52,740 nucleotides of DNA from a virus. The stretch spans positions 1 to 52,740 of IMG/VR virus record IMGVR_UViG_3300036861_000578, one strand, 5' to 3'. The notes under the pieces were generated by a model. That model searched no databases, had not been told where the DNA came from, and was given only the letters and a program-made list of their open reading frames with translations. The translations under genes were made by a program, and so were the position numbers. Below, one piece after another: positions 6,371 to 38,878 of the stretch (position 1 is its first letter; every line of letters begins with the position of its first letter).

Positions 6371-6403
6371 CGGGGCGCGCTGTTTCCCATGCGGCGCGCC
6401 CCG
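6371..6403 (+). terminator. Strong hairpin after the capsid gene
   Basis: CGGGGCGCGC at 6371-6380 pairs perfectly with GCGCGCCCCG at 6394-6403 around a 13-nt loop. It sits in the 120-nt gap after the capsid gene, just before the ribosome site GGGAGG of the glycosyltransferase. There is no T-run, so it may attenuate transcription or stabilise mRNA rather than terminate fully. Confidence 0.5.
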
Positions 6404-6421
6404 GGTCATGGGAGGCCAACC

Positions 6422-7447
6422 TTGCCCCTCTCCGAACCCACCGACCAGCTCACGATCCTCGGCTACCCCCATCAGGCTGACGGGTCCGGCTACTACCGGT
6501 TCTATCTGCCCTACCAGCATCTCGCCCGCGGCACCCATCACCGTATCCTGCTGCCCGAACCGGGGACGAAGTTCACCCCCAACGATGAGCAGACCGAAGA
6601 GATCGACATGATCGTCGGGCAGCGGTTCAGCGGCCCGGATTCGGTTCCGCTGTGGAGCCGCTGGAAGGACAAGGCCAAGCTCGTCTACGAGATCGACGAT
6701 GACGTGCTCCAGCCGGACACCTGGAGCGGCATGGCGGTCTGGTTCGACCCGCTGTGGCGCGACTCCTGCGTCGAGTGTCTCAGGATGAGCGATCTAGTGA
6801 CGGTCTCAACGGAGCCGCTGGCCGAGCGGATGCGCCAGTACAACCCCAACGTCAAGGTCGTGCCCAACCACATCGACGCGGATGCGCTGTATGTTGACCG
6901 GCCGCGGCGGGACCGCCTTGTTGTCGGCTGGTCGGGTGGGATGAGTCACCTGCGCGATTGGATGGATGTGGCCGACCCGGTCCGGGAGGTCCTGACCGCC
7001 CATTCGCAGGTCGATATGCATTTCCTCGGGATCGACTATTCCCCGGTGCTCAAACTGGACCGCCCATGCCGGTACACGCCATGGAAGCCGGACGTCTGGT
7101 CGTTCTTCAAGGCCAACGACTTCGACATCGGCCTGGCGCCGCTCGCGCCGACCCCGTTCAACGACAGCAAGTCCCACATCCGCGCGCTCGAGTACATGGC
7201 CTTGGGGATCCCCGTGATCGCGGCGGACCGGCCCGCCTACCGCGACCTCGTCATCGACGGCGTCACCGGCTACCTCGTCTCCACCGCTGAGGAATGGGCG
7301 GCACGGTTGCGGGAGCTCATCAACGATGAGGCCGCCCGCGACGAGCTCGGTGCCAAGGGACGGCAGGTCGCGCAGGGCTGGACGATCCAGACCGGTTGGA
7401 AGCTGTGGCGTGACGCCTATGAGGAGGTCGCTGGATGGCCAAGCTGA
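6422..7447 (+). CDS. Glycosyltransferase, GT-B fold (GT4-like)
   Basis: 341 residues, predicted to transfer an activated sugar, perhaps to a virion protein given its place behind the capsid gene. N-terminal Rossmann part: LTILGYPHQADGSGYYR. Donor-binding C-terminal part: RLVVGWSGGMSHLRDW, then HIRALEYMALGIPVIAAD and VIDGVTGYLV, the conserved end of retaining GT-B enzymes. The TTG at 6422 is preferred to ATG 6389 because GGGAGG lies 8 nt upstream and 6389 falls in the hairpin. The end overlaps the next small gene. Confidence 0.82.
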   Translation: MPLSEPTDQLTILGYPHQADGSGYYRFYLPYQHLARGTHHRILLPEPGTKFTPNDEQTEEIDMIVGQRFSGPDSVPLWSRWKDKAKLVYEIDDDVLQPDTWSGMAVWFDPLWRDSCVECLRMSDLVTVSTEPLAERMRQYNPNVKVVPNHIDADALYVDRPRRDRLVVGWSGGMSHLRDWMDVADPVREVLTAHSQVDMHFLGIDYSPVLKLDRPCRYTPWKPDVWSFFKANDFDIGLAPLAPTPFNDSKSHIRALEYMALGIPVIAADRPAYRDLVIDGVTGYLVSTAEEWAARLRELINDEAARDELGAKGRQVAQGWTIQTGWKLWRDAYEEVAGWPS

Positions 7448-7626
7448 TGCGGGCTGCGCAGTCGTACTGGGCAGGGAACAACTTCGTCGCGGAGAACAAG
7501 GTCATGCACGAGGGTGACCCGGACATGATCGCGGACTACTGCGAGGAGTTCACCCTGCCCGAATCTCCAGCAGCGCCGGAGGAACCCAAGCGGGGCCCGG
7601 GGCGGCCCCCGAAGGCGCAGGGGTAG
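7435..7626 (+). CDS. Small protein with AT-hook-like tail
   Basis: 63 residues starting inside the end of the glycosyltransferase. The N-terminal part (MAKLMRAAQSYWAGNNF) is followed by an acidic segment. The tail KRGPGRPPK matches the AT-hook core (GRP flanked by basic residues), a minor-groove DNA-binding motif. A 13-residue ORF at 11132 ends almost identically. The role is unknown; DNA or nucleocapsid contact is possible. Confidence 0.6.
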   Translation: MAKLMRAAQSYWAGNNFVAENKVMHEGDPDMIADYCEEFTLPESPAAPEEPKRGPGRPPKAQG

Positions 7627-7663
7627 CCAGGGACTGGCGATAGGAGCCCGCTTCCCGGCGGGT

Positions 7664-7703
7664 GAGCGCAGGCGGGTTACCTCCGTGGCCCGCCTGCGCG
7701 CTC
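7664..7703 (+). other. Imperfect hairpin in leader of the next gene
   Basis: GAGCGCAGGCGGG (7664-7676) pairs with CCCGCCTGCGCGCTC (7689-7703) with one 2-nt bulge. It lies in the 104-nt gap upstream of the GGAGG-type ribosome site at about 7712-7727. It may be a partial terminator or an mRNA stability element; no T-run follows. Confidence 0.4.
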
Positions 7704-7730
7704 AAGGGACACGGAGGAGACGGAGGAACC

Positions 7731-7961
7731 ATGGGACCCAAGATGATCCATAGCCGGAGCTTCTGGCAGGCGCTGGTTGACGCGGGCGTGTTCCGCGAGG
7801 ACGAGAAGATCCTCCGCTGCATCATCGACATGAAGGCCGGCGAAGCGGTCGTCATGCACATCCAGCGATGGGGCGACGAGCGGCTGCTCGAAGTCGACCT
7901 GGCGATGCTCAAGGAAGCTGAGATCCGCGAGGTCGGCAAGGACGGTAACGATGCGCCGTGA
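7731..7961 (+). CDS. Small conserved-looking protein of the sugar cassette
   Basis: 76 residues. ATG 7731 is chosen because GGAGGAGACGGAGG lies directly upstream; the longer frame to 7662 would read through a hairpin. The sequence is a compact alpha/beta type (HSRSFWQALVDAGVF, AGEAVVMHIQRWG). I recognise no family. It overlaps the C-methyltransferase by 11 nt, suggesting co-expression. Confidence 0.6.
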   Translation: MGPKMIHSRSFWQALVDAGVFREDEKILRCIIDMKAGEAVVMHIQRWGDERLLEVDLAMLKEAEIREVGKDGNDAP

Positions 7962-9219
7962 GGTCTGCGGTGGCTGCGGCGCCGACCAACTCGAACCCTT
8001 CCTCGACCTCGACAAGACCCCCCTCGCCGACCGGTTCCCCGCCACCGAAGATGAACCGGAGCCGACATTCCCGCTTGAGTTGGCGGTGTGCCGGTCATGC
8101 TGGTTGGTGCAGCTTCTGGAGGTCGTCGACGACGATCTGCTGTTCGGGGCCGACTACGGGTTCTACTCGGGTACGTCGCCGTCGAAGGTCGCCGAGCACG
8201 AGGCACTCGCCGCTGAGCTGCTGACCGCGTACCCGGACCAGGCGAAGCGGCTGACGGTCGAGGTCGGCTGCAACGACGGCGACCTGCTGCGCCACTTCAA
8301 GGCGGCTGGTTGTGACACCTTCGGGGTCGATCCTGCGAAGGGACCTGTAGAAGTCGCTCGCGACCGAGGGCTCGACGTGGCCCTGGGAGCGTTTGGGCGC
8401 CACTCGTCCATGGCACGCGCTATGGCCGGCAAAGCTGGGCTGGTCATCGCCCGGAACGTCGCCGCGCACGTCGCCGACCTCGACGACTTCTTCGGCGGCA
8501 TCCATGATCTGCTCGCCCCCGACGGTGTCGCCGTGGTCGAGGTGCAGTACCTGCCGGACCTGCTGCTCGGCAATCAGTTCGACCACGTCTACCACGAGCA
8601 CCGGTTCTACTTCTCGGCCGGGTCGCTGAGTGAAATCCTCAGCCGGCATGGCCTCTGGGCCTATGACGTGCAGCACACACAAGCCCAAGGTGGCAGCGTG
8701 CGGATTGCCGCCGGGAAAGCCCACGGGCATGGTGACGCGTGGGTGAATTACTGGCGTCAGGAATCGTGGCTGCGAAACCAGACCGCCTACGAGAACTTCC
8801 AGGGCCGCACCGAATACCTCCGATCCCGCCTGCTCGACCTGCTCGACGAGGTGCTGAACCCGGGCGCCACGATCGCCGGGTACGGCGCGACGGCGAAGTC
8901 GACGACGCTGTTGAACTGGTGCGGGATTGGTCGGCCGATCCTGCCGTACATCGAGGACACCACCCCGACGAAGATCGGCCGGTACTCCCCAGGGATGCGG
9001 ATCCCGATCGTCGCACCACCCAAACAAGATGACATCAAGCGGATTTGGCCCTTTGGACCGGGGCAGGTGGTAGAGGTCACCGGGCTAGACCACGCCTATC
9101 CGGATGTGTACCTCCTCCTGCTCTGGAACGACCTGGCGGGCGTCCTACGCCGCGAGCGTGAGTTCCTCGACCGGGGCGGCCGGTTCCTGGTCCCGATTCC
9201 GGTCCCGGTGCTGCTGTGA
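7951..9219 (+). CDS. NDP-sugar C-methyltransferase (SAM-dependent)
   Basis: 422 residues with the three-part layout of the TylCIII/NovU-like sugar C-methyltransferases. Zinc-binding N-terminus: Cys6, Cys9, Cys47, Cys50. SAM-binding Rossmann motif: LTVEVGCNDGDLL, about 101-113. C-terminal domain: IAGYGATAKSTTLLNW near 308. These enzymes add a methyl branch to a 4-keto-6-deoxyhexose. The GDP-mannose dehydratase encoded nearby would make such a keto sugar, so the two probably act in sequence. Ends in a GTGA overlap with the next ORF. Confidence 0.88.
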   Translation: MRREVCGGCGADQLEPFLDLDKTPLADRFPATEDEPEPTFPLELAVCRSCWLVQLLEVVDDDLLFGADYGFYSGTSPSKVAEHEALAAELLTAYPDQAKRLTVEVGCNDGDLLRHFKAAGCDTFGVDPAKGPVEVARDRGLDVALGAFGRHSSMARAMAGKAGLVIARNVAAHVADLDDFFGGIHDLLAPDGVAVVEVQYLPDLLLGNQFDHVYHEHRFYFSAGSLSEILSRHGLWAYDVQHTQAQGGSVRIAAGKAHGHGDAWVNYWRQESWLRNQTAYENFQGRTEYLRSRLLDLLDEVLNPGATIAGYGATAKSTTLLNWCGIGRPILPYIEDTTPTKIGRYSPGMRIPIVAPPKQDDIKRIWPFGPGQVVEVTGLDHAYPDVYLLLLWNDLAGVLRREREFLDRGGRFLVPIPVPVLL

Positions 9220-9461
9220 CCCGCTACCGGATCCCGGTCGCGGTCGAGGTGCTGGTGGCACCCAACCTGGAACTGCCGCGCGGGATGCTGATCGCCGCTA
9301 CCGGCGAGCCAGATCGTTATGGGGTGTGTCTGGTCGAGGTCGAAGACGACGATGCCCCGGCGGACCTTGAAGGGAAGACACTCTCGCCGACGTTCACGAA
9401 GAACTCCGTCACGGGCGAAGTGACCATCGCCGACTATGGCGAGCCGGTGAACTACCCATGA
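9216..9461 (+). CDS. Small unknown protein between sugar genes
   Basis: 81 residues, GTG start overlapping the methyltransferase stop and ATGA overlap with the dehydratase. Mostly beta-type sequence (VAVEVLVAPNLELP, YGVCLVEVEDDDAP, EVTIADYGEPV). No family recognised. Tight coupling on both sides suggests it belongs to the sugar pathway or modifies its products. Confidence 0.6.
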   Translation: MTRYRIPVAVEVLVAPNLELPRGMLIAATGEPDRYGVCLVEVEDDDAPADLEGKTLSPTFTKNSVTGEVTIADYGEPVNYP

Positions 9462-10411
9462 GAGCCCTCATCACGGGCGTCACCGGCCAGGACGGCTCCT
9501 ACCTGGCCGAGCAGCTCACCGCGGATGGCCATGACGTGTTCGGGCTGGTCCGTGGCCAGGCGAACTTGAAACGCGGATGGATTCAGCAGTTGGTGCCTTC
9601 CCTCCAGTTGCTGGATGGCGACCTGCTCGACCAGTCGTCTCTGGTGGACGCCCTCCAGGCCACCAAGCCCGACGTGGTGTTCAACCTCGGCGCGGTCACC
9701 TATGTCGGCATGAGCTGGCAGCAGCCGACGCTGATGACGGAGGTCACCGGCCTCGGCGTGCTGCGGCTGCTGGAGGCGATCCGGCAGGTCGACCCGGCCA
9801 TCCGTCTGGTCCAGGCCAGCTCGAGCGAGATGTTCGGCAGCGCGCCGGCGCCGCAGAACGAGCTGACACCGTTCCGGCCCCGCTCGCCGTACGGGGTCGC
9901 CAAGGCGTTCGCGCACCATACAACCGTCAACTACCGCGAGTCCTACGGGCTGCACGCGTCCACGGCGATCATGTTCAACCATGAGAGCCCGCGGCGCGGG
10001 GAGGAGTTCGTCACCCGCAAGATTACCCGCGCGGTCGCCCGAATCGCCGCCGGCCAGCAAACCGAACTCGGCCTCGGTAACCTCGACGCCCGCCGCGACT
10101 GGGGCTGGGCCCCCGACTATGTGACGGCGCTGCCGCTGATCGCCGAACAGGATCGCCCTGGTGACTATGTCCTAGCAACTGGGGAATCCCACACCGTTCG
10201 GGAGCTCGTCGAGGTCGCATTCGGGCGGGCCGCGCTGAATTGGCGCGACCATATCCGGCTCGACCTCGCGGCCTGCCGACCTGCCGACGTTGCCCATCTG
10301 CAGGGCAATCCGATGTACGCGGCGAAGCAGCTGGGTTGGCAAGCCACGGCCCGGTTCCGCGGAATCGTCGAGTGGCTGGTCGCCCACGACCTGCAGCAGC
10401 TGGCAGCGTGA
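9458..10411 (+). CDS. gmd: GDP-mannose 4,6-dehydratase
   Basis: Converts GDP-D-mannose to GDP-4-keto-6-deoxymannose, using bound NADP. Extended SDR fold: nucleotide motif GVTGQDGSYL at 7-16; active-site Ser122/Glu124 in SSSEMFG; Tyr145 and Lys149 in SPYGVAK; diagnostic NHESPRRGEEFVTRKIT near 174 and LGNLDARRDWGWAPDYV near 200. 317 residues, slightly shorter than cellular enzymes. No 4-reductase gene is visible, so the keto sugar would be used directly, methylated, or reduced by host enzymes. Coupled to the next glycosyltransferase by GTGA. Confidence 0.93.
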   Translation: MRALITGVTGQDGSYLAEQLTADGHDVFGLVRGQANLKRGWIQQLVPSLQLLDGDLLDQSSLVDALQATKPDVVFNLGAVTYVGMSWQQPTLMTEVTGLGVLRLLEAIRQVDPAIRLVQASSSEMFGSAPAPQNELTPFRPRSPYGVAKAFAHHTTVNYRESYGLHASTAIMFNHESPRRGEEFVTRKITRAVARIAAGQQTELGLGNLDARRDWGWAPDYVTALPLIAEQDRPGDYVLATGESHTVRELVEVAFGRAALNWRDHIRLDLAACRPADVAHLQGNPMYAAKQLGWQATARFRGIVEWLVAHDLQQLAA

Positions 10412-11127
10412 CCGCCCCCGGCCCGGCGGTCACCTGCCTCCTGACTGCCCACATGAAGCCCTACCTCCGCGACGCGCTCGAATCGGCGGTCAACCAGACC
10501 CGGCAGGATATCCACATCCTGGTGGTCGACTCGGGCCGGTGGCGCGGCCAGCCAGGGCGCGAGTCGAAGCTGATGGCCCGCATCCACCGCGACTACGCCA
10601 AGTATCCGCTGGTCGAGTGGACGTTCACCGACGAGGGCCCGGACCTGAAGCAGATGGCGTGTCCGGTGGCGCTGGCCACCAACAATGCCATCCGTGCCGG
10701 GCTGGTCCGCGGCCGGTACATGTGCACCTTCTACGACGACGACCGGTACCTGCCGACATTTATGGAGCGGATGGCCGGCTACCTCGACCAGTTCCCCCAG
10801 GTCGGCGCGGTCTGGTGCTCGCAACTGCTCACCGTCGTCGCTCCGGACGGCACCGAGACGGAGGTCGGCCTGCGGCCAGCGACCGACGTCAAGTACGGCG
10901 CGTCGATGGACTGCCGCGTGGATGGCGGCCAGGTGATGTGGCGGACCGCCCTGCTCGACGAGATTGGCGACCCGTGGCTGCCGGAAGCGCCGCAGACCTG
11001 CTACCACTCCGACGGGATCTTCCTCGACAAGCTCGGCAGCGTCTGCGGGATGGTCCCCCCGATTCCCGAGGTGCTGTGCGTGCATCGGTACACGCCGCTG
11101 TCGACCTACTCGCCCTCGCCCGTCTGA
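10408..11127 (+). CDS. Glycosyltransferase family 2-like protein
   Basis: 239 residues from a GTG overlapping the dehydratase stop. GT-A fold signals: VTCLLTAHMKPYLRDALESA at the N-terminus, ILVVDSG near 37-43, and the metal-binding DDD (110-112) in CTFYDDDRYLP. CYHSDGIFLDKLG near 197 is a likely acceptor-side acidic motif. As last enzyme of the cassette it may transfer the deoxy sugar to a virion component. The acceptor cannot be told from sequence. Confidence 0.82.
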   Translation: MTAPGPAVTCLLTAHMKPYLRDALESAVNQTRQDIHILVVDSGRWRGQPGRESKLMARIHRDYAKYPLVEWTFTDEGPDLKQMACPVALATNNAIRAGLVRGRYMCTFYDDDRYLPTFMERMAGYLDQFPQVGAVWCSQLLTVVAPDGTETEVGLRPATDVKYGASMDCRVDGGQVMWRTALLDEIGDPWLPEAPQTCYHSDGIFLDKLGSVCGMVPPIPEVLCVHRYTPLSTYSPSPV

Positions 11128-14758: not shown

Positions 14759-16420
14759 ATGCCCAGAGTCCGCCGGGCCCCGACTAGGCCGCGGCTGCCG
14801 CGGGCACGGCTCGGGTCGCGGATCCTGCGGCCGGCGCCGGCCGCGCCATCCCGTACCGCCCCGGTCTTCTCGACCACCCGCGGGTCCGTGTCCGGCTCGA
14901 CCCAGGCGATCACGACCAGCTCGTTCACCCCTGCGGCGAATTCGATCCTGATTGCCTGGTCGTGGACGAGCACCGATGTCCGCGATGTCGTCACCGACTC
15001 CCTCGGCGGTGGCTGGACGGCGTTCCTGGGACGAGACTTCACCGAGGGTGGTGAGCGGTCCGGCTGGCAGGCGTCCTACCAACTCATCGGCGCGAGCCCC
15101 GCATCGCGGACGGTGACGTTCACCGCCAGCGCGGTCGACGACCACGGCGGCGGGGTCGAGGAATGGACCAGCCACGACGCCGCCAGCCCAATCGGCGCGA
15201 CCTCTGAGACGAGCTTCGCGCTGTCCAGCGCGGACCCGCGGACGCTCGCGCTGACCACGCTGAACGAGAACAGCTGGGTCATCGGCGGCCTATCCAACTG
15301 GGACAACACGTCCTGCTCGTCGGGTGACGGTGGTTCCACCGTCATCATCAACCAGTCGACCATCCCGCCCGGCGGCGGCGGCTGCTCAGCCCGCCGGTCG
15401 GCCGCGACCGCGGCACCCGGGTCGGTCACCCTGTCGATCAACCGGGCTGGGGTCGCCGAACGCGGCAACATCTGCGCGTTCGAGCTCAAGGGTGCGATTT
15501 CGGCTGGCGGCCCTCAGACGATCGCCGCCGATCAGGCGATTGAGACTGAGACCGCGCAGGCGGTCGGCAAACTCAAGACCGCCGCTGCAGCGCAGGCCAG
15601 TGAGACCGAGACTGCGCAGGCAGTTGCCGCCAGCAAGACCAGGGCCGCCATCCAAGCGACCGAAACCGAAACAGCGCAGATACTCGGGAAGCTCAAGACC
15701 CGCGCTGCAGCGCAGGCCAGTGAGACCGAGACCGCGCAGGCGATCACGGTCCGCAAGACAGTCGCCGTCGGGCAGGCAACCGAAACCGAAACCGGCCAGG
15801 CGGTCGCCGCCAGCGGCGTCCTTGGCCAAGCCGCCGAGACCGAGACCGCGCAGGCCCTCACGGCCCGTAAGGCAAAGGCGCTAGCGCAGACCATTGAGAC
15901 CGAGACGGCCCAGCCGATCACGGTCCTCAAAATCCGCAGCGTCGCGCAGGCCAGCGAGACGGAGACCAGCCAGGCCCTCGGCCGGACCAAGGTCAAAGCC
16001 GCCAGCCAAGCCATCGAGACCGAAACCGGCCAGCAGACCAGTAGCCGCAAGACCCGCAGCCTCGGCCAGGCCAGCGAGGCCGAGACCGCGCAGACGGTCC
16101 AGCCAAGCGGGCCCAAGCTCGTCGCGGTTGGCCAGGCCATCGAAACCGAAACTGCGCAGCCCCTTGGCAAGGCCAAAGTCAAGGCGCTCAGCCAGGCTGC
16201 CGAATCCGAAGCGGCGCAGACGCTGATCAGGCTGCGGGCCTATGGCGTCGCGCAGGCGCTTGAGCTAGAAACGGCGTTCGGGGTTGTGACCGGAGTCACC
16301 CCCAGCAGCCCCCCAGGGTTCGCCGCCGTCGGCGCCACCGCTGGTCGCGCCCAGACCGCTGGTATGTCCGGCAGCGTCATCGCAGAAAGCACAGAAGGAA
16401 CCGTCAGGGTCGGCGAGTAG
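14759..16420 (+). CDS. Fibre-like protein with 13 tandem QAxETETAQ repeats
   Basis: 553 residues. Residues 1-35 are basic and proline/arginine-rich. About 36-250 form a beta-sandwich-like domain related to the upstream surface proteins (FSTTRGSVSGSTQAITTSSF to NICAFELKGA). Residues 259-510 are 13 repeats of about 20 residues built on Q-A-x-E-T-E-T-A-Q followed by a variable basic half. The C-terminal 40 residues are a separate cap. The architecture suggests an anchored shaft with a tip. Repeat 12 is degenerate (AESEAAQ), 5 is short, 10 is long. Confidence 0.65.
   Translation: MPRVRRAPTRPRLPRARLGSRILRPAPAAPSRTAPVFSTTRGSVSGSTQAITTSSFTPAANSILIAWSWTSTDVRDVVTDSLGGGWTAFLGRDFTEGGERSGWQASYQLIGASPASRTVTFTASAVDDHGGGVEEWTSHDAASPIGATSETSFALSSADPRTLALTTLNENSWVIGGLSNWDNTSCSSGDGGSTVIINQSTIPPGGGGCSARRSAATAAPGSVTLSINRAGVAERGNICAFELKGAISAGGPQTIAADQAIETETAQAVGKLKTAAAAQASETETAQAVAASKTRAAIQATETETAQILGKLKTRAAAQASETETAQAITVRKTVAVGQATETETGQAVAASGVLGQAAETETAQALTARKAKALAQTIETETAQPITVLKIRSVAQASETETSQALGRTKVKAASQAIETETGQQTSSRKTRSLGQASEAETAQTVQPSGPKLVAVGQAIETETAQPLGKAKVKALSQAAESEAAQTLIRLRAYGVAQALELETAFGVVTGVTPSSPPGFAAVGATAGRAQTAGMSGSVIAESTEGTVRVGE
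15533..16287 (+). repeat. 13-copy coding repeat, about 60 bp period
   Basis: Direct repeats of about 60 nt, each containing a GAGACCGAGACCGCGCAG-like core, within the fibre-like gene. Third-position differences show an old, selected array rather than a fresh expansion. Copy number could change by slippage or recombination. Confidence 0.85.
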
Positions 16421-19702: not shown

Positions 19703-20725
19703 TTGAAGCGCGTCCTCGTCGTCCACCCGGGCCCGAACTTCTCCGTCGCGGACGTGCACACCGGATGGATCGAGGCGCTCCGCGAACTCGGCCTGATGGT
19801 GTTCCCCTACAACCTCGACGACCGCTTGGCCTTCTACGACAGCACGTATCTGCCCGATGGGGAAGGTGGCTACCGCAAGGCCCTGTCCGATGACCAGGCG
19901 ATCGGGATGGCCACCAACGGGATCGCCGCGGCACTGTTCAAGATCCGCCCCCACATCCTGCTGTCGATCAGCTCGTTCTTCATCGACTTCGAAATGCTCA
20001 AGCACGCGATGCGGACCGGCACCCAGGTCGTTCTCGTCCACACCGAAAGTCCGTATGAGGACGATCGGCAGCTCGGCCTCGCCCCGCACGCGACGCTGAA
20101 CCTTCTCAACGACCCGACGAACATCGACCGGTTCCGCACCCTCGGCCCCACCGAATACGTCCCCCACGCCTACCGGCCCAACCTCCATACGCCGGGTCCC
20201 GTGGTGCCGGAGCTCGCGTGTGATCTGGCGTTCGTCGGGACCGGCTACCCCAGCCGCGAGACGTTCTTCAACGCGATGGACCTCGAGGGCCTCGAGGTGC
20301 GGCTGGGTGGTAACTGGATGCGCCTTCCCCCCGACTCGCCGCTGCGGAAGTTCGTCATGCACGACATCGACGAATGCATGGACAACGAAGATGCCGTCCC
20401 GCTCTACCGGTCCGCGAAGGTCGGCATCAACCTGTATCGCCGCGAGGCCGCCCACCCCGAGCTCCAGCAGGGCTGGGCGATGGGGCCCCGCGAGGTCGAG
20501 ATGGCCGCGTGCGGGCTGTTCTTCCTCCGCGACCCCCGCGGCGAAGGCGACGAAGTCCTGCTGTTGCCGACCTTCACCGACGCCGAGGACGCCTCGGAGA
20601 AGGTGCGGTGGTTCCTGGCCCATGACGGGGTTCGCGAGGCGATGGCCGATAAGGCACGCGAAGCCGTGCAATCCAGGACGTTCACCAACAACGCGAAGCG
20701 GCTGATGGAGCTACTAGGCCAGTAG
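19703..20725 (+). CDS. CgeB-like glycosyltransferase
   Basis: 340 residues, TTG start. GT-B architecture of the CgeB/DUF3880 type: N-terminal KRVLVVHPGPNFSVAD, acceptor-side HTESPYEDDRQLG near 113, LAFVGTGYPSRETFF opening the donor domain near 174, VGINLYRREAAHPELQQGW near 238, and MAACGLFFLRDPRGEGDE near 260. A second, separate sugar-transfer gene within the neck/tail genes, which supports glycosylation of a virion protein. It is the only gene between the tail terminator and a reverse-strand cluster. Confidence 0.78.
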   Translation: MKRVLVVHPGPNFSVADVHTGWIEALRELGLMVFPYNLDDRLAFYDSTYLPDGEGGYRKALSDDQAIGMATNGIAAALFKIRPHILLSISSFFIDFEMLKHAMRTGTQVVLVHTESPYEDDRQLGLAPHATLNLLNDPTNIDRFRTLGPTEYVPHAYRPNLHTPGPVVPELACDLAFVGTGYPSRETFFNAMDLEGLEVRLGGNWMRLPPDSPLRKFVMHDIDECMDNEDAVPLYRSAKVGINLYRREAAHPELQQGWAMGPREVEMAACGLFFLRDPRGEGDEVLLLPTFTDAEDASEKVRWFLAHDGVREAMADKAREAVQSRTFTNNAKRLMELLGQ

Positions 20726-21191: not shown

Positions 21192-21896
21192 TCACTGGTG
21201 CAGTGCCCGCCAGTGAGCGGGATTCACGCAGCTCTGAGTGCTGCATTGTTGCTTGAACATCGTGGGCTCTGAGATCGGTCCATGGGTCAATTCCCACGCC
21301 ACCCGATGTGCTGATTGGGCCTTGCCCTGCCAGGCAACCCTTCCATAACCGCCGGTACCCTTACCGGCCAGCCATGGCCAGCAGGCATCCGCACCTCCCG
21401 ACCGATCAACCTTCGCCCAGAAGCGCGCGTTGTCTGGAAGCGATGCGATCGGCTGCGCGGTCGTTCCGGCACGTCGCAGCCGCGCTTTGAGCTTCACCTG
21501 CTCGTTCCAGCAGATACGGCACTGCCGACCGGGCTTGCTGGCGACGAGATTGTTGCCGGTCAACTCATGGCCCTTGGGGCAGTGCGTCTTGCGGGCGTTG
21601 ACGGCGGTTGGTGCTTCGCCGCGTAGCACGTTGGTGCGGTGCTGAACCGGCTCTAGATGAGTCGGCTGGCAGCATGCTCGATTGCGGCAGAGGTGGTCGA
21701 TCGTCAGGCCAGCCGGGATCGGCCCATGTGTTAGTTCCCAGGCTATGCGGTGTGCAGGAGTCATCTTGCTCTGCCACCAGACGTAGCCATAGCCAGCCGG
21801 AGTCTTGCCGGCCGTCCATGGCCAGCATCCAGCGGCATCTGTCTGGTCGACCCTCGACCAGAAGTAAGTAACCGGATCAGACCGCCGTCCTGTCAT
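21192..21896 (-). CDS. HNH endonuclease with duplicated, half-dead domain
   Basis: 234 residues, reverse strand inside the tail module. First domain 11-92: CWPWTAGKTPAGYGYVWW, then LTIDHLCRNRACCQPTHLEP with catalytic Asp67-His68. A zinc knuckle follows (Cys106, His110, Cys126, Cys129). Residues 157-232 repeat the first domain (RFWAKVDRSGGADACWPW, AHRVAWELTHGPI), but the DHLC catalytic stretch is replaced by MFKQQC, so the second copy should not cut. Probably a mobile, homing-type nuclease whose second domain binds DNA. Confidence 0.85.
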   Translation of the reverse strand: MTGRRSDPVTYFWSRVDQTDAAGCWPWTAGKTPAGYGYVWWQSKMTPAHRIAWELTHGPIPAGLTIDHLCRNRACCQPTHLEPVQHRTNVLRGEAPTAVNARKTHCPKGHELTGNNLVASKPGRQCRICWNEQVKLKARLRRAGTTAQPIASLPDNARFWAKVDRSGGADACWPWLAGKGTGGYGRVAWQGKAQSAHRVAWELTHGPISEPTMFKQQCSTQSCVNPAHWRALHQ

Positions 21897-31871: not shown

Positions 31872-31945
31872 TAGAATCAGCAGGTGAGTGGCCCCGCGGT
31901 GGGGAAACACCCGGGGCCGTGGACGACACCGGAAGGGGTGCCGCC
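31872..31945 (+). promoter_or_regulatory. Two-hairpin leader element, copy A (with promoter)
   Basis: -10 box TAGAAT (31872-31877). Hairpin 1: GGCCCCG (31890-31896) with CGGGGCC (31912-31918), extended by GGTG (31898-31901) and CACC (31908-31911), loop GGGAAA. Hairpin 2: CACC (31927-31930) with GGTG (31937-31940), enclosing the ribosome site GGAAGG. The ATG follows at 31946. Same architecture as the copies at 36159, 37011 and 51008. Confidence 0.7.
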
Positions 31946-32401
31946 ATGCCGAAGGGTATCTACCCTCACCGCCGCAAGTCACCAGAGGAACGGTTCTGGG
32001 CCAAGGTTCAGAAGACGGAGACCTGCTGGCTCTGGACCGGCGCCAAAGAAACGAGAGGCTACGGCCACTTCACCCTTGGCGGCCGAACTGACCGACGGAT
32101 CGTCAAGGCCCACCGCTATGCCTACGAGTTGCTGGTGGGTCCGATCCCCGAAGGCTTGACGCTTGATCACCTCTGCCGGGTGCGATGGTGCGTTCGACCA
32201 GATCACCTAGAACCAGCCACCAATCGCGAGAACCAATTACGTGGCGATGGTCAGGGTGGCCGGAACGCCCGCAAGACCCACTGCCCGAAGGGTCACCCCT
32301 ACGACGAGGCGAACACCTACATCGACTCTCTGGGCAGAAGGGTATGCCGCCAGTGCCGCCGAGCGTATCGAGCCAGATACAGGAGAACGCATGCCCGATA
32401 G
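31946..32401 (+). CDS. HNH endonuclease upstream of lysin
   Basis: 151 residues. N-terminal RFWAKVQKTETCWLWTGAK domain, catalytic Asp74-His75 in LTLDHLCRVRWCVRPDHLEP with Cys77, Cys82 and His87, and a zinc knuckle (Cys113, His117, Cys134, Cys137). Close relative, visibly also at DNA level, of the reverse-strand HNH at 36543-37010. ATG 31946 is chosen because the leader's ribosome site serves it. Overlaps the lysin start by 11 nt. Probably a free-standing homing-type nuclease that has settled beside an essential gene. Confidence 0.87.
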   Translation: MPKGIYPHRRKSPEERFWAKVQKTETCWLWTGAKETRGYGHFTLGGRTDRRIVKAHRYAYELLVGPIPEGLTLDHLCRVRWCVRPDHLEPATNRENQLRGDGQGGRNARKTHCPKGHPYDEANTYIDSLGRRVCRQCRRAYRARYRRTHAR

Positions 32402-33686: not shown

Positions 33687-33925
33687 GGCTGGCGCGGATG
33701 CGGAAGTTCCTGGTCGTGGCCAGCCTCGGCCTGCTCGAGGCCGCCGCCTACGTCGCCGCCGACCCGCGTGACCTGCCCGCGTGGGTGGTCACGGGTGCGC
33801 TGGCGGTCAACGCCGCTGGGGTGTACTTCGTGCGGAACCGGCCTGCGCCGTCCGCGGAGGCGCTGCTGGCCCAGCGGGTTCGCGAATCGAGGCGGCAGCA
33901 GGCGCCACCGTTCGAGGCGCCATAG
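33683..33925 (+). CDS. Holin candidate
   Basis: 80 residues; GGAGGG upstream of ATG 33683 decides the start. Basic N-terminus (MRLARMRKF), hydrophobic LVVASLGLLEAAAYVAA (10-26), a short polar turn, then LPAWVVTGALAVNAAGVYFV (32-51) and a charged tail. This two-helix form with VTGA and AAGVYFVRN matches common actinophage holins that open the membrane for the amidase encoded upstream. A terminator hairpin follows. Confidence 0.7.
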   Translation: MRLARMRKFLVVASLGLLEAAAYVAADPRDLPAWVVTGALAVNAAGVYFVRNRPAPSAEALLAQRVRESRRQQAPPFEAP

Positions 33926-33971
33926 TAGAATCCGGCTGCGATCCGGGCTAAGGGATCCTGATTCAGTCCCC

Positions 33972-34001
33972 GACCCCCCGCTACTTCGGTGGCGGGGGGT
34001 C
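33972..34001. terminator. Bidirectional terminator between convergent operons
   Basis: GACCCCCCGC (33972-33981) and GCGGGGGGTC (33992-34001) form a perfect 10-bp stem with a 10-nt loop. It lies after the forward lysis genes and at the end of the reverse operon. The reverse gene's Pro-Pro-Pro-Pro-Lys tail is encoded by the stem and its stop lies at the loop edge. No T-run on either side. Confidence 0.75.
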
Positions 34002-34247
34002 GTTCGCGTTCCGAGATGCCCCTTGTCCAGTAAGTGCCCGGAGGGTCGCGATGAATGCATCTTCGATGGAGTCACCCCGCAGTCGATACAGATCGTAGAG
34101 GTTGAGGGCAGCAGGGTCTTGCGGAAGGTACTGCTTGGCTTCCTCATCGGTGGCCGGGATGCTGTCACGCCAATCGGTTTGGCCGGTGGCAAAGTTGTGC
34201 CAGCCATGCGATTGGTTTTGAGGTACATCAGGCGGCATTAAAGGCAT
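33981..34247 (-). CDS. Last gene of the reverse small-gene operon
   Basis: 88 residues; AAGAGGAT 5 nt before the ATG. PLMPPDVPQNQSHGWHNFAT, then DEEAKQYLPQDPAALNLYDLYRLRGDSIEDAF. The C-terminal PPPPK comes from the terminator stem. No family recognised; soluble and mostly helical. Confidence 0.55.
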   Translation of the reverse strand: MPLMPPDVPQNQSHGWHNFATGQTDWRDSIPATDEEAKQYLPQDPAALNLYDLYRLRGDSIEDAFIATLRALTGQGASRNANDPPPPK

Positions 34248-34297
34248 CGTCGATCCTCTTGAACCAGCTGCCGCCAGAGCTGCGCAGGGTTGGTCAT
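34238..34297 (-). CDS. 19-residue coupling ORF (tentative)
   Basis: Starts with ATGACC at the same repeated junction as the neighbouring genes and encodes MTNPAQLWRQLVQEDRRCL, ending just past the start of the next gene. It may be a leader that couples translation, or the surviving start of a broken gene. Confidence 0.35.
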   Translation of the reverse strand: MTNPAQLWRQLVQEDRRCL

Positions 34298-34542
34298 GGC
34301 TGGGAACCTTCGGATGGGTCGTCGGCTTCTCTCTCGACCCATTCGACGATCTCTGCAAACCGCCGATACAGGTCCATGTAGAAACGGGCACGTTTCTCAG
34401 CCTTGTCGCGGTGCTTCCGGCAGTCCTCCCACATCGCCTCGAAGTCGGGAGGCGTCCCGTCCTGCGGAGCGGTGAAGTAATGGGGAGTGGGGTGCTTGCA
34501 GTGCGGGTCAGCGCAGAACTGCCAGACCGACAGGTCGGTCAT
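34294..34542 (-). CDS. Small coupled protein, SEGSQP tail
   Basis: 82 residues. LSVWQFCADPHCKHPTPHYF (possible Cys/His site: Cys10, Cys15, His16, His20) then a basic helix CRKHRDKAEKRARFYMDLYR. Ends ...PSEGSQP, the shared tail of this operon. Overlaps its neighbours by ATGA. Unknown function. Confidence 0.55.
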   Translation of the reverse strand: MTDLSVWQFCADPHCKHPTPHYFTAPQDGTPPDFEAMWEDCRKHRDKAEKRARFYMDLYRRFAEIVEWVEREADDPSEGSQP

Positions 34543-34727
34543 GGCTGCTCACCTTCGGGTGAGGGGCCATCATTCTCATTCAGCCAGTCGACAAGAGGTC
34601 CGCGCACCAGAACCCGCGATATGGACGCGGCGGCTTCCTCAAGCGACACACCTGCCGCTCGGGCAAGTTCGTCTGTGACGTCCCAGACTTCAGCCGGGAG
34701 ACCCCATCGTTCCCGCGGGTCGGTCAT
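34539..34727 (-). CDS. Small coupled protein, PEGEQP tail
   Basis: 62 residues. PRERWGLPAEVWDVTDELARAAG and EEAAASISRVLVRGPLVDWL form a short helical domain; ends SPEGEQP. Starts with MTDP like the next two genes upstream. No family recognised. Confidence 0.55.
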   Translation of the reverse strand: MTDPRERWGLPAEVWDVTDELARAAGVSLEEAAASISRVLVRGPLVDWLNENDGPSPEGEQP

Positions 34728-35089
34728 GGCTGCTCACCTTCGGGTGGCAACTCGGCCTTGTCGGCCTCACCCCATGCCTTCAGGGCATCCCGCAGCCGCG
34801 GCCTGTCGGTGATGGTATCGGGCCCCCATGCCAGTTCATGGATGACGGCGCGGGCGAGGCGTAGTTCGGCCCGCAGCTGCTCGATCTCGCGGCTTCGTTC
34901 GATGGCGACACGGCTTTCGGTTCGCCAGCCGTCAAGCGCACCCACCAGTTGGGTTCGCTTGTCCTCGACCTCGCCGATGAGCGTGTCGAGGACGTTCATC
35001 CTGATACTGATGAGGTCCGTCGGGCCGACAACGTTGGCGCTATAGAGCGAGTCTCGGTAATCCCTGATCTCGTCCAGCGGGTCGGTCAT
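34724..35089 (-). CDS. Coiled-coil coupled protein, PEGEQP tail
   Basis: 121 residues. MTDPLDEIRDYRDSLYSANV opening, then NVLDTLIGEVEDKRTQLVGAL and SREIEQLRAELRLARAVIHEL, a clear coiled coil. Ends PPEGEQP. Its first eight residues equal those of the next gene upstream, so the two may be diverged duplicates. Confidence 0.58.
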   Translation of the reverse strand: MTDPLDEIRDYRDSLYSANVVGPTDLISIRMNVLDTLIGEVEDKRTQLVGALDGWRTESRVAIERSREIEQLRAELRLARAVIHELAWGPDTITDRPRLRDALKAWGEADKAELPPEGEQP

Positions 35090-35502
35090 GGCTGGTCGCC
35101 TTTGGGTGGGTTCAGCAGGTCATGAATGCGGGTCTTTGCGGTGGCGAGCATGTCCCGCGTGAATGACGAGCACGCCAAACCTTCGTCCTCGAAGAACGCC
35201 TCAACGGTAGCCACCGTCATGACGAGCGCCGCCAGGAACTCGTCGGCCAGCCCCCGCAGCCGCTCGACCTCGGCGGTGAGGATGGCCACGTCGTCGACCT
35301 TGTACCGCCGCAATTGCTCGACCTCGCCGACGAGCGCGTCGATGTCGGCCGGGGCATGGGCGATGAACTCAGGGTTGCCCACGCCCGACACCTCCGCGAC
35401 AACGAGGTCATCCGGGCTCAGCACTTCATCGCCGATGTGGTGCCAAGGATCGGACGAGACTCCCGCGCGCCGCGCCCGGATCTCGTCCAGCGGATCGGTC
35501 AT
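35086..35502 (-). CDS. Coiled-coil coupled protein, KGDQP tail
   Basis: 138 residues. Opens MTDPLDEIRARRAGVSSDPWHHIG, then DIDALVGEVEQLRRYKVDDV and ILTAEVERLRGLADEFLAAL (coiled coil). Phage proteins of the pattern 'DPW...I.D..ALLAEVERLR' are common in actinophages and unassigned. Ends NPPKGDQP, a variant of the repeated tail. Confidence 0.6.
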   Translation of the reverse strand: MTDPLDEIRARRAGVSSDPWHHIGDEVLSPDDLVVAEVSGVGNPEFIAHAPADIDALVGEVEQLRRYKVDDVAILTAEVERLRGLADEFLAALVMTVATVEAFFEDEGLACSSFTRDMLATAKTRIHDLLNPPKGDQP

Positions 35503-35714
35503 GGCTGCTCACCTTCGGGTGGGCGGTAGTCCTCTAGGATCGGCACCGCGACCACGACCCCGCCGACCTCCTGCGCTCGGCTGCGGGCGAACTCCAGGTC
35601 GTAGACGACCCACATGATGCCGTGAGGCTGGGCGGCTACAACGGCGTAAACTCCCCGCAGCTGCTCGATCTCGGCGAGCGCATCCTTGAGGTTGTTCGGC
35701 TTGTGCTCGGTCAT
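35499..35714 (-). CDS. Small coupled protein, PEGEQP tail
   Basis: 71 residues; GGAGGA before ATG 35714 decides the start over an upstream in-frame ATG. TEHKPNNLKDALAEIEQLRG, then YAVVAAQPHGIMWVVYDLEF. Ends PPEGEQP at the repeated junction. No family recognised. Confidence 0.52.
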   Translation of the reverse strand: MTEHKPNNLKDALAEIEQLRGVYAVVAAQPHGIMWVVYDLEFARSRAQEVGGVVVAVPILEDYRPPEGEQP

Positions 35715-35725
35715 GGCGTCCTCCT

Positions 35726-35962
35726 TCACCAGCGTCGCCACCAGCGACCCACCGTCCGGTCGGGTCGGCGGCCGCCCTGCAGGTCGGCGGCGAACCGCCG
35801 TAGCACTCCCGGGATGGCGGCGACGTCGGTCGGGTAGCGCAGCCGCTGCGCCTGGCAGAATGCCTGGACGGGTAGGAGCGTCTGGTCGGCGTGGTCGGCG
35901 AGGGCGGTCACGCGGGCGGCGACGGCGCGGCGTCGCGCGTCGGGCGCGTCAGGCGTCAGCAC
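35726..35962 (-). CDS. Small helical protein of reverse operon
   Basis: 78 residues, GTG start inside the end of the preceding gene (14-nt overlap). RRRAVAARVTALADHADQTLLPVQAF then YPTDVAAIPGVLRRFAADLQ, helical and basic, ending WRRW. No family recognised; start uncertain. Confidence 0.48.
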   Translation of the reverse strand: MLTPDAPDARRRAVAARVTALADHADQTLLPVQAFCQAQRLRYPTDVAAIPGVLRRFAADLQGGRRPDRTVGRWWRRW

Positions 35963-36158
35963 GCTCGTTGGCCTTCCTCACCGCTTCGGCGACGACCAGG
36001 GCGGCCATCATCCACGGGTGCCGGTCGTCGTCGTCGAGCTGCTGCCAGGTCGCGTACGTCCAGGACGAGTCGGTGGTGACCTGCATGCTCCACGTGCGGT
36101 AGGCGATCTCGCCGAGCTGGGCGGCCGGCGGAATATGGATCGTCGTACTGTTTGGCAT
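35949..36158 (-). CDS. First gene of reverse small-gene operon
   Basis: 69 residues with AGGAGG 5-6 nt before the ATG, placed inside hairpin 2 of leader copy B. STTIHIPPAAQLGEIAYRTW and MQVTTDSSWTYATWQQLDDD, then RHPWMMAALVVAEAVRKANE. Tryptophan-rich small phage protein with no assigned function. The only leader-bearing gene here that is not a nuclease. Confidence 0.58.
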   Translation of the reverse strand: MPNSTTIHIPPAAQLGEIAYRTWSMQVTTDSSWTYATWQQLDDDDRHPWMMAALVVAEAVRKANERADA

Positions 36159-36234
36159 GGCGACCTCCTAGCGGGTCGTCCGGGCCCCGGGCTGCTGCCG
36201 GCAGCTGCGGGGCCATCTTATTGGCTGGGCTGGG
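36159..36234 (-). promoter_or_regulatory. Two-hairpin leader element, copy B
   Basis: Reverse strand. Hairpin 1: forward GGCCCCG (36183-36189) with CGGGGCC (36208-36214), extended by GCTGC (36191-36195) and GCAGC (36201-36205). Hairpin 2: forward CGACC (36161-36165) with GGTCG (36174-36178), enclosing AGGAGG of the gene at 36158. Possible -10 boxes are GATAGT (about 36234-36229) or TAAGAT beside hairpin 1. Confidence 0.65.
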
Positions 36235-36267
36235 GCGAAACTATCTGCCATGCGAACTGCCCGAGGC

Positions 36268-36546
36268 TCATCCTTCCCCCTCAAGCTCGAACAGGTGGAA
36301 GACGTAATCGCCGCCGTGGACGAGCGCGGTCGCGACATGTCGGCACGCGCCGAAGTCGGCCGGGTGGCCAGTCCCGACAACGCGGAAGTGGCGCCGCTCG
36401 GTTGCGACCTCGTCGACGTCATGCCGTTCCCAGATGCAGAACCGGTCATGCTGCTCAGCGAAGTGCAGGACGGTCGCGCCCCTGGGAAGGTCGAGGTCGG
36501 CGGCGATGCCTTCGCCGAGGTCATGCTTCCAGATGACGAACTTCAT
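36268..36546 (-). CDS. DUF7352-like small phage protein
   Basis: 92 residues, ATG overlapping the HNH stop by ATGA. The order KFVIWKHDLG, DLPRGATVLHFAEQHDRFCIW, then RRHFRVVGTGHPADFG and DYVFHLFELEGEG matches a widespread small beta-sheet phage family (DUF7352 type; function unknown). Translationally coupled to the mobile HNH gene, which therefore seems to have landed in front of it. Confidence 0.65.
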   Translation of the reverse strand: MKFVIWKHDLGEGIAADLDLPRGATVLHFAEQHDRFCIWERHDVDEVATERRHFRVVGTGHPADFGACRHVATALVHGGDYVFHLFELEGEG

Positions 36547-37010
36547 CGGTTTGCCTTTCTCGGCTGGCGCGGGTCGTTGATCCGGTCGACCGCGCGGGTC
36601 CGCGCCCGGTTGAGCGTGGCCTTCTCTCGGTTGCACGTCAGGCAGTAACGGCGACGGCCGGTGCCACGGCGGTATGTGCCATCGAGTGGGTGGCCCTTCC
36701 GGCAATGGGTTCGGGCAGCGCTGGCCCGGCTGATGTTCTCCTGATGCGTCACTGGTTCTAGGTGGTCCGGCTTAACGCAGAGGGGGACACGGCACAGATG
36801 ATCGAGCGTCAACCCCTTGGGGATCGGACCCACCAGCAACTCATAGGCGAAGCGATGGACATAGACCGGGCGGTTGCCGCCAGCGTTGAAGGTGCCATAT
36901 CCCTGAGCGTTCTTACTGCCCGTCCACAGCCAGCACGTCTCGGTCTTGATGACCTTCGGCCAGAACCGTTCCTCTGGTGGCCGCGGCGGTACGCCCGTAC
37001 GCTTACCCAC
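36543..37010 (-). CDS. HNH endonuclease, reverse-strand twin
   Basis: 155 residues from GTG 37010, chosen because GGGAGGG of leader copy C lies 6-7 nt upstream. RFWPKVIKTETCWLWTGSK, catalytic Asp70-His71 in LTLDHLCRVPLCVKPDHLEP, zinc knuckle THCRKGHPLDG to YCLTCN. Shares long stretches with the HNH gene at 31946, so the two form an inverted repeat about 5 kb apart around the lysis genes and the reverse operon. Ends in ATGA coupling to DUF7352. Confidence 0.87.
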   Translation of the reverse strand: MGKRTGVPPRPPEERFWPKVIKTETCWLWTGSKNAQGYGTFNAGGNRPVYVHRFAYELLVGPIPKGLTLDHLCRVPLCVKPDHLEPVTHQENISRASAARTHCRKGHPLDGTYRRGTGRRRYCLTCNREKATLNRARTRAVDRINDPRQPRKANR

Positions 37011-37086
37011 GTCGATCCCTCCCGTTAGGGGTCGGCCGGGCCCGGGGTGCCGCAAGCGCCGCCGGGCCATTGACCTGCTCATTGTC
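37011..37086 (-). promoter_or_regulatory. Two-hairpin leader element, copy C
   Basis: Reverse strand. -10-like GACAAT (37086-37081) overlaps the integrase 3' end. Hairpin 1: forward GGCCCGG (37039-37045) with CCGGGCC (37062-37068), extended by GGTGC (37046-37050) and GCGCC (37056-37060; one C-A mismatch on the transcript). Hairpin 2 covers 37013-37035 with CGA/TCG and CCC/GGG pairs around the ribosome site GGGAGGG. AGCAGGT follows the -10 as in copy A. Confidence 0.65.
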
Positions 37087-38233
37087 TCACCTGGGCCCCA
37101 CGTCTTGGGTCAAGGATCTTCGGGACCTGCTCAGCCAACTCCCAGTCATACCCAGAAACGTACCGTCTGGTCACTCTGTCTGATTCGTGCCCGAGGAACG
37201 CGCTCACCTGCGACAGGTTGCGGCCTTTCTCAGCCGCCAGCAGCGCTGTTGCTGCGGAGTGCCGAAGGCTGTGCCCGGACTCGTCGACGCCGCAGCCGTG
37301 CATGAAGTCCGATACCAGCCGCGAGAGCGACTTGGCCCGCAGCGGCAGGCCCGGGAAGCGGCGGTTGGCGATCAGGGGCTGGCCGGGTCGGGCATCGCGG
37401 GCGCCGAGGTACTTGCTGATCGCGGCCTGTGCCTCAGGGTGCAAGGGAATCCATCGCTCTTTGCGGCCCTTTCCCATGACGCGGATCTTGCCGGGAAGCA
37501 GCACCGGGTCCTCTTCATCAGATTCTGGTGGGGGGAACCACAAGCGCGGCGGGTAGTAGTCCTCGACTTTGAGGCTGGCGATCTCACCGCAGCGCAACCC
37601 ACCGAAGTAGCCCAGCACGACCATGAGATACATACGTGGGTCGTCTTCGGCGGCGAGCAGCACGGCACGGAGCTGGTCGGCGTCCAGGGAACGTGGCGCC
37701 CCGGGCCGGACCTTCGGTGGGCGCACCAGCTCCATCGGGTTACGTCGGAGGTAGCCGGCCTGGTGGGCGAACCGGTAGAGACCCCGGATCGCGACGATGT
37801 AGTGCGCCCGCGCTGCTGGCGACAGCGGCTGCCCGCGGCGCCGTCCCGTGCGGGCAGGACGGTCAAGGAACCGCACCACATCAGCGGGGCCCGCCTGATG
37901 CCATGCCTTCGTGCGGCCCCGAACCTTGCTGGTGGCCAGGTAGGCGCAGAAGTCGTATGCGACCTTGCGGATCTCGCTGACCGTGCTCTCCGCGCAGTCC
38001 GCCTCGACAAGGAGAAACCGCCGGTAGTCGCGCCACAACGCGGGGAACGTGACGACGCCGAGGAGCTGGAGGTCGACCTCGGCGAGGTGGTGGTGGTCGT
38101 CGAGCCAGATGCTCACGACGGCGACCAGGACGACGCCGCCGACGGGTGCGAGGCGTGGGACGAGGACTTGGAGCCACCGCCAGACGGCGGCGTAGAAGTA
38201 GATATACAGGATGAGATAGGCCAGGACCGGCAT
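37079..38233 (-). CDS. int: Tyrosine integrase with N-terminal membrane helices
   Basis: 384 residues. Catalytic set complete: Arg214 (GLRCGEIASL), Lys255 (GKGRKERW), His321 and Arg324 (HSLRHSAAT), His349 (LGHESDRVT), Tyr358 (RRYVSGYD). A core-binding domain (SAM-like, about 64-165) precedes it. Unusually, residues 4-19 and 30-44 are hydrophobic membrane-like helices, and GGAAGAGGGGGC upstream of ATG 38233 supports that start; GTG 38116 would remove them. Carries out phage integration/excision. The attP site is not identifiable; the 162-bp gap 38234-38395 shows nothing clear. Confidence 0.9.
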   Translation of the reverse strand: MPVLAYLILYIYFYAAVWRWLQVLVPRLAPVGGVVLVAVVSIWLDDHHHLAEVDLQLLGVVTFPALWRDYRRFLLVEADCAESTVSEIRKVAYDFCAYLATSKVRGRTKAWHQAGPADVVRFLDRPARTGRRRGQPLSPAARAHYIVAIRGLYRFAHQAGYLRRNPMELVRPPKVRPGAPRSLDADQLRAVLLAAEDDPRMYLMVVLGYFGGLRCGEIASLKVEDYYPPRLWFPPPESDEEDPVLLPGKIRVMGKGRKERWIPLHPEAQAAISKYLGARDARPGQPLIANRRFPGLPLRAKSLSRLVSDFMHGCGVDESGHSLRHSAATALLAAEKGRNLSQVSAFLGHESDRVTRRYVSGYDWELAEQVPKILDPRRGAQVRQ

Positions 38234-38395
38234 GGCGCCCCCTCTTCCGCGCGTGCCCTACCACGCGGCTGCCAGAAAGGCGCAGTCTCACCCTGCCAAG
38301 TCACGAGCGGGTCACAACGGCCGAAGGCGGGTAGAAGGCCATACCGACCAATGCAAGCAGGATGTGCATTCCCCGTCGGGGACAACACGGGGCAG

Positions 38396-38647
38396 TCATC
38401 CTTTGGAGAGCTTCTGAATCAACTCGGCAGCAGCCTTCTCGCCCGTTGTTGTGAGCCGGAATAAAGGGCCGCCCTGGTCGTCGATGCTCATTTCAAGCAG
38501 CCCCTCCTCGACGAGTTCGAGCAAGGCTGCCTCTGTCTCATCAGGTGTGGCAATCTTCCGGCAGAGGCGGCAGAAAGGCCCGTGGTCGTAGGCGTCGCAT
38601 TCCCACCACTGGCCACCCCGATCCTTCCACCGATGCAACTGGCTCAT
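38396..38647 (-). CDS. Small protein with zinc knuckle and winged-helix-like end
   Basis: 83 residues; GGAGG before the ATG. Cys-containing N-terminus (ECDAYDHGPFCRLCRK), then TPDETEAALLELVEEGLLEM and GGPLFRLTTTGEKAAAELI, which has the helix-helix-wing rhythm of small transcription regulators. It lies between repressor and integrase. A similar wing pattern occurs in the gene at 41836. Confidence 0.55.
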   Translation of the reverse strand: MSQLHRWKDRGGQWWECDAYDHGPFCRLCRKIATPDETEAALLELVEEGLLEMSIDDQGGPLFRLTTTGEKAAAELIQKLSKG

Positions 38648-38659
38648 GCTGCCTCCTTG

Positions 38660-38878
38660 TCATGGCTGCGGTGGGATCAGTTCGACCCGGCCGCCGCATC
38701 GCGGGCAAAGCCTGATGATGCGTCCTCGTGTGCGGCGACGTTCGCCCCTCCAGCCGCACGGGTCGCCCAGTTGTCTCTTCACCAGCCCGTGATCCGCGAC
38801 CCATCTCATCTCGGACCCGACTCCTTGCGCCCATGGGACCAGGCGTCCCCCGCCGGCACACCGGACGTTGGCGGCCAT
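38660..38878 (-). CDS. Small zinc-ribbon-like protein
   Basis: 72 residues from ATG 38878, overlapping the repressor stop (TGATG), AGAAGG upstream. MRWVADHGLVKRQLGDPCGW and the terminal IIRLCPRCGGRVELIPP give a possible metal site (Cys50-type residue plus CPRCGG). Basic, so nucleic-acid contact is possible. Function unknown. Confidence 0.5.
   Translation of the reverse strand: MAANVRCAGGGRLVPWAQGVGSEMRWVADHGLVKRQLGDPCGWRGERRRTRGRIIRLCPRCGGRVELIPPQP

Follow-up and report, generated by a model that had tools for sequence, protein, structure and literature searches.

Why should five neighbouring small genes of one phage end in nearly the same nucleotides and nearly the same amino acids? The virus record in which they lie is the window analysed here, that is, the whole stretch of DNA of 52.7 kb (52,740 nt). 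Its terminase is of the actinophage type and has its best matches in Gordonia and Arthrobacter phages (~33% identity), while the first 25 kb of the window have no near match in the phage collection.

A run of small genes joined by one repeated junction

On the minus strand of the window a tyrosine integrase (37079–38233) and an HNH gene (36543–37082) are followed by small genes down to 33.98 kb (Table 1). Gene A could alternatively start at GTG 35741. A Pfam search with genes A to F gave no match, and in the PHROGs search gene B alone of this run was assigned to a clear family. No protein relatives of gene B were found in genome_contigs; one distant relative (L007) stands in a neighbourhood that contains no such junctions. 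An Rfam scan of 33900–36300 returned two chance-level matches and nothing more, a promoter scan of 33900–38700 found no sigma-70-type site, and a search of plasmids yielded a single 51-nt match.

Five consecutive minus-strand ATGA overlaps, with starts at 35502, 35089, 34727, 34542 and 34297 (J1 to J5), have a common junction, and at every one of them the Shine-Dalgarno (SD) region lies within the closing codons of the gene upstream, whose TGA stop is contained in the ATGA. J1, J3 and J4 are identical over 26–27 nt, J2 has 3 differences and J5 about 5–6. On the minus strand the sequence CACCCGAAGGTGAGCAGCCATGA is present exactly at 34539–34561, 34724–34746 and 35499–35521 and with 3 mismatches at 35086–35108, and a weaker fifth copy, CATCCGAAGGTTCCCAGCCATGA, occupies 34294–34316. 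The alignment shows AAGG and CAGCCATGACC unchanged in all five copies, and CAGCCATGACC occurs exactly five times in the window, each time within the junction run. The repeat is thus confined to the 4-nt overlaps of a 1.2-kb segment (34290–35521), with no copy elsewhere in the window. The sequence-only reading of this DNA had described identical junctions that couple five genes; a repeat is indeed found at five junctions, but only three of them are identical, J2 and J5 have diverged, and J5 leads into an ORF of 19 codons. This ORF begins with MTNP, a start typical of the family, and may represent a truncated gene start, what is left of a gene since lost, or a leader peptide.

Table 1. Genes, junctions and other features of the run, listed from upstream to downstream on the minus strand
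Feature	Position in window	Strand	Description
Gene A	35499..35714	-	71 aa from ATG 35714; ends PPEGEQP; homologue in viral contig L060
J1, end of A / SD / start of B	35495..35521	-	CACCCGAAGGTGAGCAGCCATGACCGA, exact copy
Gene B	35086..35502	-	138 aa; PHROG 722 family, function unknown; ends PPKGDQP
J2, end of B / start of C	35082..35108	-	3 differences; stem broken (A-C)
Gene C	34724..35089	-	121 aa; ends PPEGEQP; probably paralogous to B
J3, end of C / start of D	34720..34746	-	Exact copy
Gene D	34539..34727	-	62 aa; no protein relatives found in viral contigs; ends SPEGEQP
J4, end of D / start of E	34535..34561	-	Exact copy; sole copy with unusually stable local structure
Gene E	34294..34542	-	82 aa; no protein relatives found in viral contigs; ends PSEGSQP
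J5, end of E / start of 19-codon ORF	34290..34316	-	Degenerate; stem broken
19-codon ORF	34238..34297	-	MTNPAQLWRQLVQEDRRCL; opened by J5; TAA overlaps ATG of gene F (TAATG)
Gene F	33981..34247	-	88 aa from ATG 34247; last in run
Inverted repeat	33971..34002	-	14 nt with 4-nt loop; end of run; possible terminator, without a T run

Outside this run, genes for sugar metabolism stand among the virion genes (6389–11127 and 19703–20725, plus strand) and include by Pfam a GDP-mannose 4,6-dehydratase (E 1.9e-109), a C-methyltransferase and glycosyltransferase-like proteins, which suggests that the particles may be glycosylated. A 553-aa protein encoded at 14759–16420 (plus strand) consists in part of many degenerate QAxETETAQ repeats and has no Pfam match. 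HNH-type genes are found on both strands (31919–32401, plus; 36543–37082 and 21192–21896, minus), carry similar motifs of the form W..KV...CWLWTG, in one case twice, and are apparently paralogous.

The junction copies are related to one another

With 1 mismatch allowed, CAGCCATGACC has 12 matches in the window, compared to a mean of 1.36 and a largest value of 6 in shuffled sequences. Pairwise identity among the five copies is 21–27 over 27 nt, against a mean of 12.0 (sd 2.5, maximum 21) in a background of 1816 pairs of other ATGA junctions with an SD, which came from the window, from its relatives and from four contigs chosen because they have this tail, near-identical homologous junction pairs being excluded. 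A junction profile puts the probability of a 23-nt agreement between two independent junctions at about 10^-8.8. A relaxed 22-nt pattern, CCGAAGGNGANCAGCCATGACC, is matched in two other contigs of the viral collection, with one copy each, and the exact 22-mer in no contig among the GTDB genome_contigs, both scans being of collections that may omit records very near the window. In each of the two contigs with relaxed matches (L005 and L006), which belong to unrelated phages, the junction stands only once and points to convergence. The junction is also absent from seven tail-protein relatives, which are partial and may be fragments.

Because the junction is so rare in other contigs, several copies within 1.2 kb can hardly be independent, and judged by their sequences they must be related by descent or conversion. 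For J5 identity alone is unconvincing (21–22 of 27, where the maximum of the convergence background is 21), and it is its position in the series that makes it a likely copy. The pairing energy of the SD in the copies is weaker than the average of the window.

The stem around the SD is not a conserved hairpin

The sequence-only reading had proposed that a common SD hairpin couples the genes, with a CACC-CGAA-GGTG stem that hides the SD unless a ribosome translating the upstream gene unfolds it. Three copies (J1, J3 and J4) have an intact stem. Of these, J3 and J4 score z –2.7 and –4.1 in 51-nt folds, and in J4 the stem extends into a stable structure (–17.2 kcal/mol) that includes the start codon, which is in keeping with such gating. 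However, two of the five copies break the stem, J2 by an A-C and J5 by a C-U plus one U-G, and there is no compensating change; covariation, for its part, cannot show in three identical copies. When compared to 56 other starts of the window, J4 alone is unusual (MFE –25.5, 4th–5th percentile), whereas the folding of J1, J2 (which folds differently), J3 and J5 is ordinary, and the SD accessibility of J1 to J4 (0.42–0.55) is at the background level (0.39 ± 0.19). The CACC/GGTG stem does not qualify as a conserved regulatory hairpin, and the comparison lends no support to a switch common to the junctions, so that hairpin-gated coupling appears improbable. J4 may be a special case: in its long stable structure (34530–34580, minus strand) the start codon, too, is paired (AUGGC with GCCAU).

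The shared protein tail follows from the nucleotide signal

Read in the frame of the upstream gene, an SD followed by CC-ATGA yields E-G-x-x-P-stop, and the tails at J1 to J5 are those listed for genes A to E in Table 1. We found PEGEQP, encoded by any codons, in front of CCATGA in 17 other viral contigs (one match each), in all 17 at ATGA junctions of two ORFs; the proteins concerned form 8 unrelated groups, none of which is related to genes A to E. The permuted tail GEPEQP, which reorders these residues and displaces the SD, had no match in viral contigs, a strong contrast although this control is one permuted pattern and not a full null. Within the window, independent junctions likewise carry similar tails (PGEGKP at 43665 and QPEGDG at 45547). 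Between the copies, five of six changed tail codons are non-synonymous. As an independent parallel, two successive genes of the unrelated phage L006 (positions 1–520) end in AEGEQP and PKGDKPE at SD junctions.

This bears out the earlier claim that the tail is forced by a DNA signal; the opposite pattern, of tails constrained at the protein level with freely varying codons, is not what the copies display. A selected C-terminal peptide tag, serving for example in partner binding or proteolysis, would account for a tail common to five neighbouring proteins, but it is scarcely credible in view of the amino acid changes between copies, of a gene A homologue (in L060) that lacks the tail, and of the recurrence of the tail, though not of its permuted form, by convergence at SD junctions of unrelated phages. 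From the sequences, what is kept is the nucleotide signal rather than the peptide, and the tail is a by-product of SD and CC-ATGA being read in the upstream frame. The shared C-terminus can in this way be explained without a protein function, and this is a caution against treating such tails as tags or motifs in annotation.

A probable duplication accounts for two of the genes

Genes B and C have MTDPLDEI and other segments in common (BLASTP E 2e-5 when the ends are included), and without the ends their similarity score is reached by 4 of 500 shuffles, which makes one B/C duplication likely. BLASTP detects no relationship of genes A, D and E to B/C or to one another. The earlier description of the tail-bearing proteins as unrelated is therefore correct for A, D, E and the B/C pair as separate groups but not within this pair, whose members look like diverged paralogues. 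Tandem duplication of one gene as the sole origin of the run was rejected, since only B and C are related; B/C apart, the genes have no homology among themselves, and simple tandem duplication is insufficient for all copies.

A homologue of gene A (57% identity over residues 19–64) is present in the viral contig L060, in the same run as an integrase that is 37% identical to that of the window. The DNA of L060 matches through GAGGACTACCG (the EDYR codons) and diverges where the repeat of the window begins, its gene A homologue keeping ...PILEDYR up to the repeat edge; the repeat and genes B to E are absent from L060. As the homology stops at the repeat edge, and as L060 has neither the repeat nor genes B to E, the repeat is a separate unit from gene A. 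We found no close relative of the window phage that carries the junction array.

A comparable junction bounds a present/absent gene in mycobacteriophages

Cluster C mycobacteriophages have distant relatives of gene B at their left end. A different SD-bearing gene end, GCGGTTGTRGCCGAGGGGGAAGACAA (26–31 nt), is present in 158 mycobacteriophage records and gives unrelated proteins the tail AEGED. In 21 loci this junction stands behind 5 groups of upstream proteins (one of which accounts for 21 of 28 sites) and before 8 groups of downstream proteins. At the left end of cluster C, DirtMonster and NoodleTree are ~99% identical on both sides of a 55-aa gene (gene 7) that is present in DirtMonster and absent from NoodleTree. 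The extra gene is bounded by two copies of the junction (28/29 nt), and gp6 and gp7 of DirtMonster accordingly have a common EGED tail (VVAEGEDK and VVAEGEDNHG, respectively). Among the mycobacteriophage loci L039–L059, two or three copies are found in Ovechkin, Fancypants, GigiOuiOui and DirtMonster. Gene 83 of DosHalletts (L054:583–936), which is annotated as the mobile element MPME1, ends in AVVAKGEDNHA, which would fit an insertion of the element into, or next to, a gene that closes with this junction.

Like the junctions of the window, GCGGTTGTRGCCGAGGGGGAAGACAA is one SD-bearing gene end common to unrelated genes, to which it gives a common tail, and it bounds a gene that is present or absent; it differs from them in sequence and in its distribution over 158 phage records rather than one phage. 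The earlier suggestion that the junction had spread by duplication or gene shuffling is thus upheld by an identity far above that of other junctions, by the L060 homology that ends at the repeat edge, and by the gene presence and absence in DirtMonster and NoodleTree.

Discussion

We consider it probable, at roughly three in four, that the five junctions are an ordinary termination–reinitiation junction multiplied by gene duplication or insertion, with the tail as a by-product and with no hairpin switch. The boundary element would comprise the SD-bearing final codons of the gene upstream, the ATGA overlap and the first codons of the next gene, and would have been multiplied as small genes were duplicated or inserted side by side; its near-identity is observed, and from this we infer the events, namely gene duplication for B and C and insertion or conversion for the remaining copies. 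A ribosome ending one gene would be held by the in-gene SD and restart at the overlapping ATG, as suggested by the ATGA/SD anatomy and by published tests in other organisms. Translational coupling is likely on the strength of the ATGA overlaps with an in-gene SD, not of the hairpin.

Such an origin is known in kind, as a by-product of gene insertion or duplication, and is unusual in its copy number. In the cluster I mycobacteriophages Island3 and Brujita a gene-end duplication of ~50 bp causes the inserted small gene (Island3 gene 68) to end like its upstream neighbour, which has been interpreted as recombination at boundary sequences (PMC3029335). The consecutive genes of the window similarly end in near-identical nucleotides while the tail-bearing proteins, B/C excepted, are otherwise unrelated, but for Island3 the copies are two and one phage has the gene where another lacks it, whereas the window has five copies of a shorter repeat and no such pair of phages. 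In cluster O a 17-bp direct repeat flanks Corndog gene 14 and Catdawg genes 95–97 at stop/start junctions and is single where the gene is absent (PMC4351075); there too the copies are two, and a run of identical ATGA/SD junctions as in the window is not described. With these precedents, homologous exchange at such junctions is plausible. Experiments in an archaeon and in E. coli have demonstrated coupling by termination–reinitiation where genes overlap at ATGA (PMC6728339), and in the lambdoid nin region genes are closely packed by means of such overlaps (PMC8022706). In what is available of these two sources, the systems resemble the window in their chains of small genes with ATGA overlaps and an SD inside the upstream gene, and near-identical junction copies, which the window has, are not reported.

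The nearest repeated start signals are the Start-Associated Sequences (SAS) of cluster K mycobacteriophages and of cluster EF Microbacterium phages (PMC3203893, PMC7302621), and the repeats might by analogy be sites at which a phage or host factor co-regulates genes, as proposed for those phages. The repeat of the window matches the description of the SAS in that it places a sequence with an SD, in one orientation, at the ribosome binding sites of several unrelated genes of non-structural type and is conserved, as CAGCCATGACC, beyond the SD core. SAS, however, are dispersed and cluster-wide and mostly occupy gaps over 50 bp, whereas this repeat forms one 1.2-kb run inside coding ends; it lacks the inverted extension upstream, and no related phage is known with the repeat at the same genes. 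Binding by such a factor is in our judgement decidedly unlikely, and a multiplied termination–reinitiation junction is the reading we retain.

More tentatively, and with considerable doubt, SD-bearing gene ends could be general exchange joints, in which a short junction is kept so that recombination can add, drop or swap genes with translation unbroken, the window phage (five joints) and the mycobacteriophages (GCCGAGGGGGAAGACAA, 158 records) being two instances. Among the many sequenced phages that carry it, the GCGGTTGTRGCCGAGGGGGAAGACAA joint offers a natural system in which this can be tested. A general link would then connect gene ends that carry an SD with shared tails and with gene exchange: a joint that holds stop, SD and start together could be recombined without disturbing either reading frame, and may provide a route for phage mosaicism that preserves translation.
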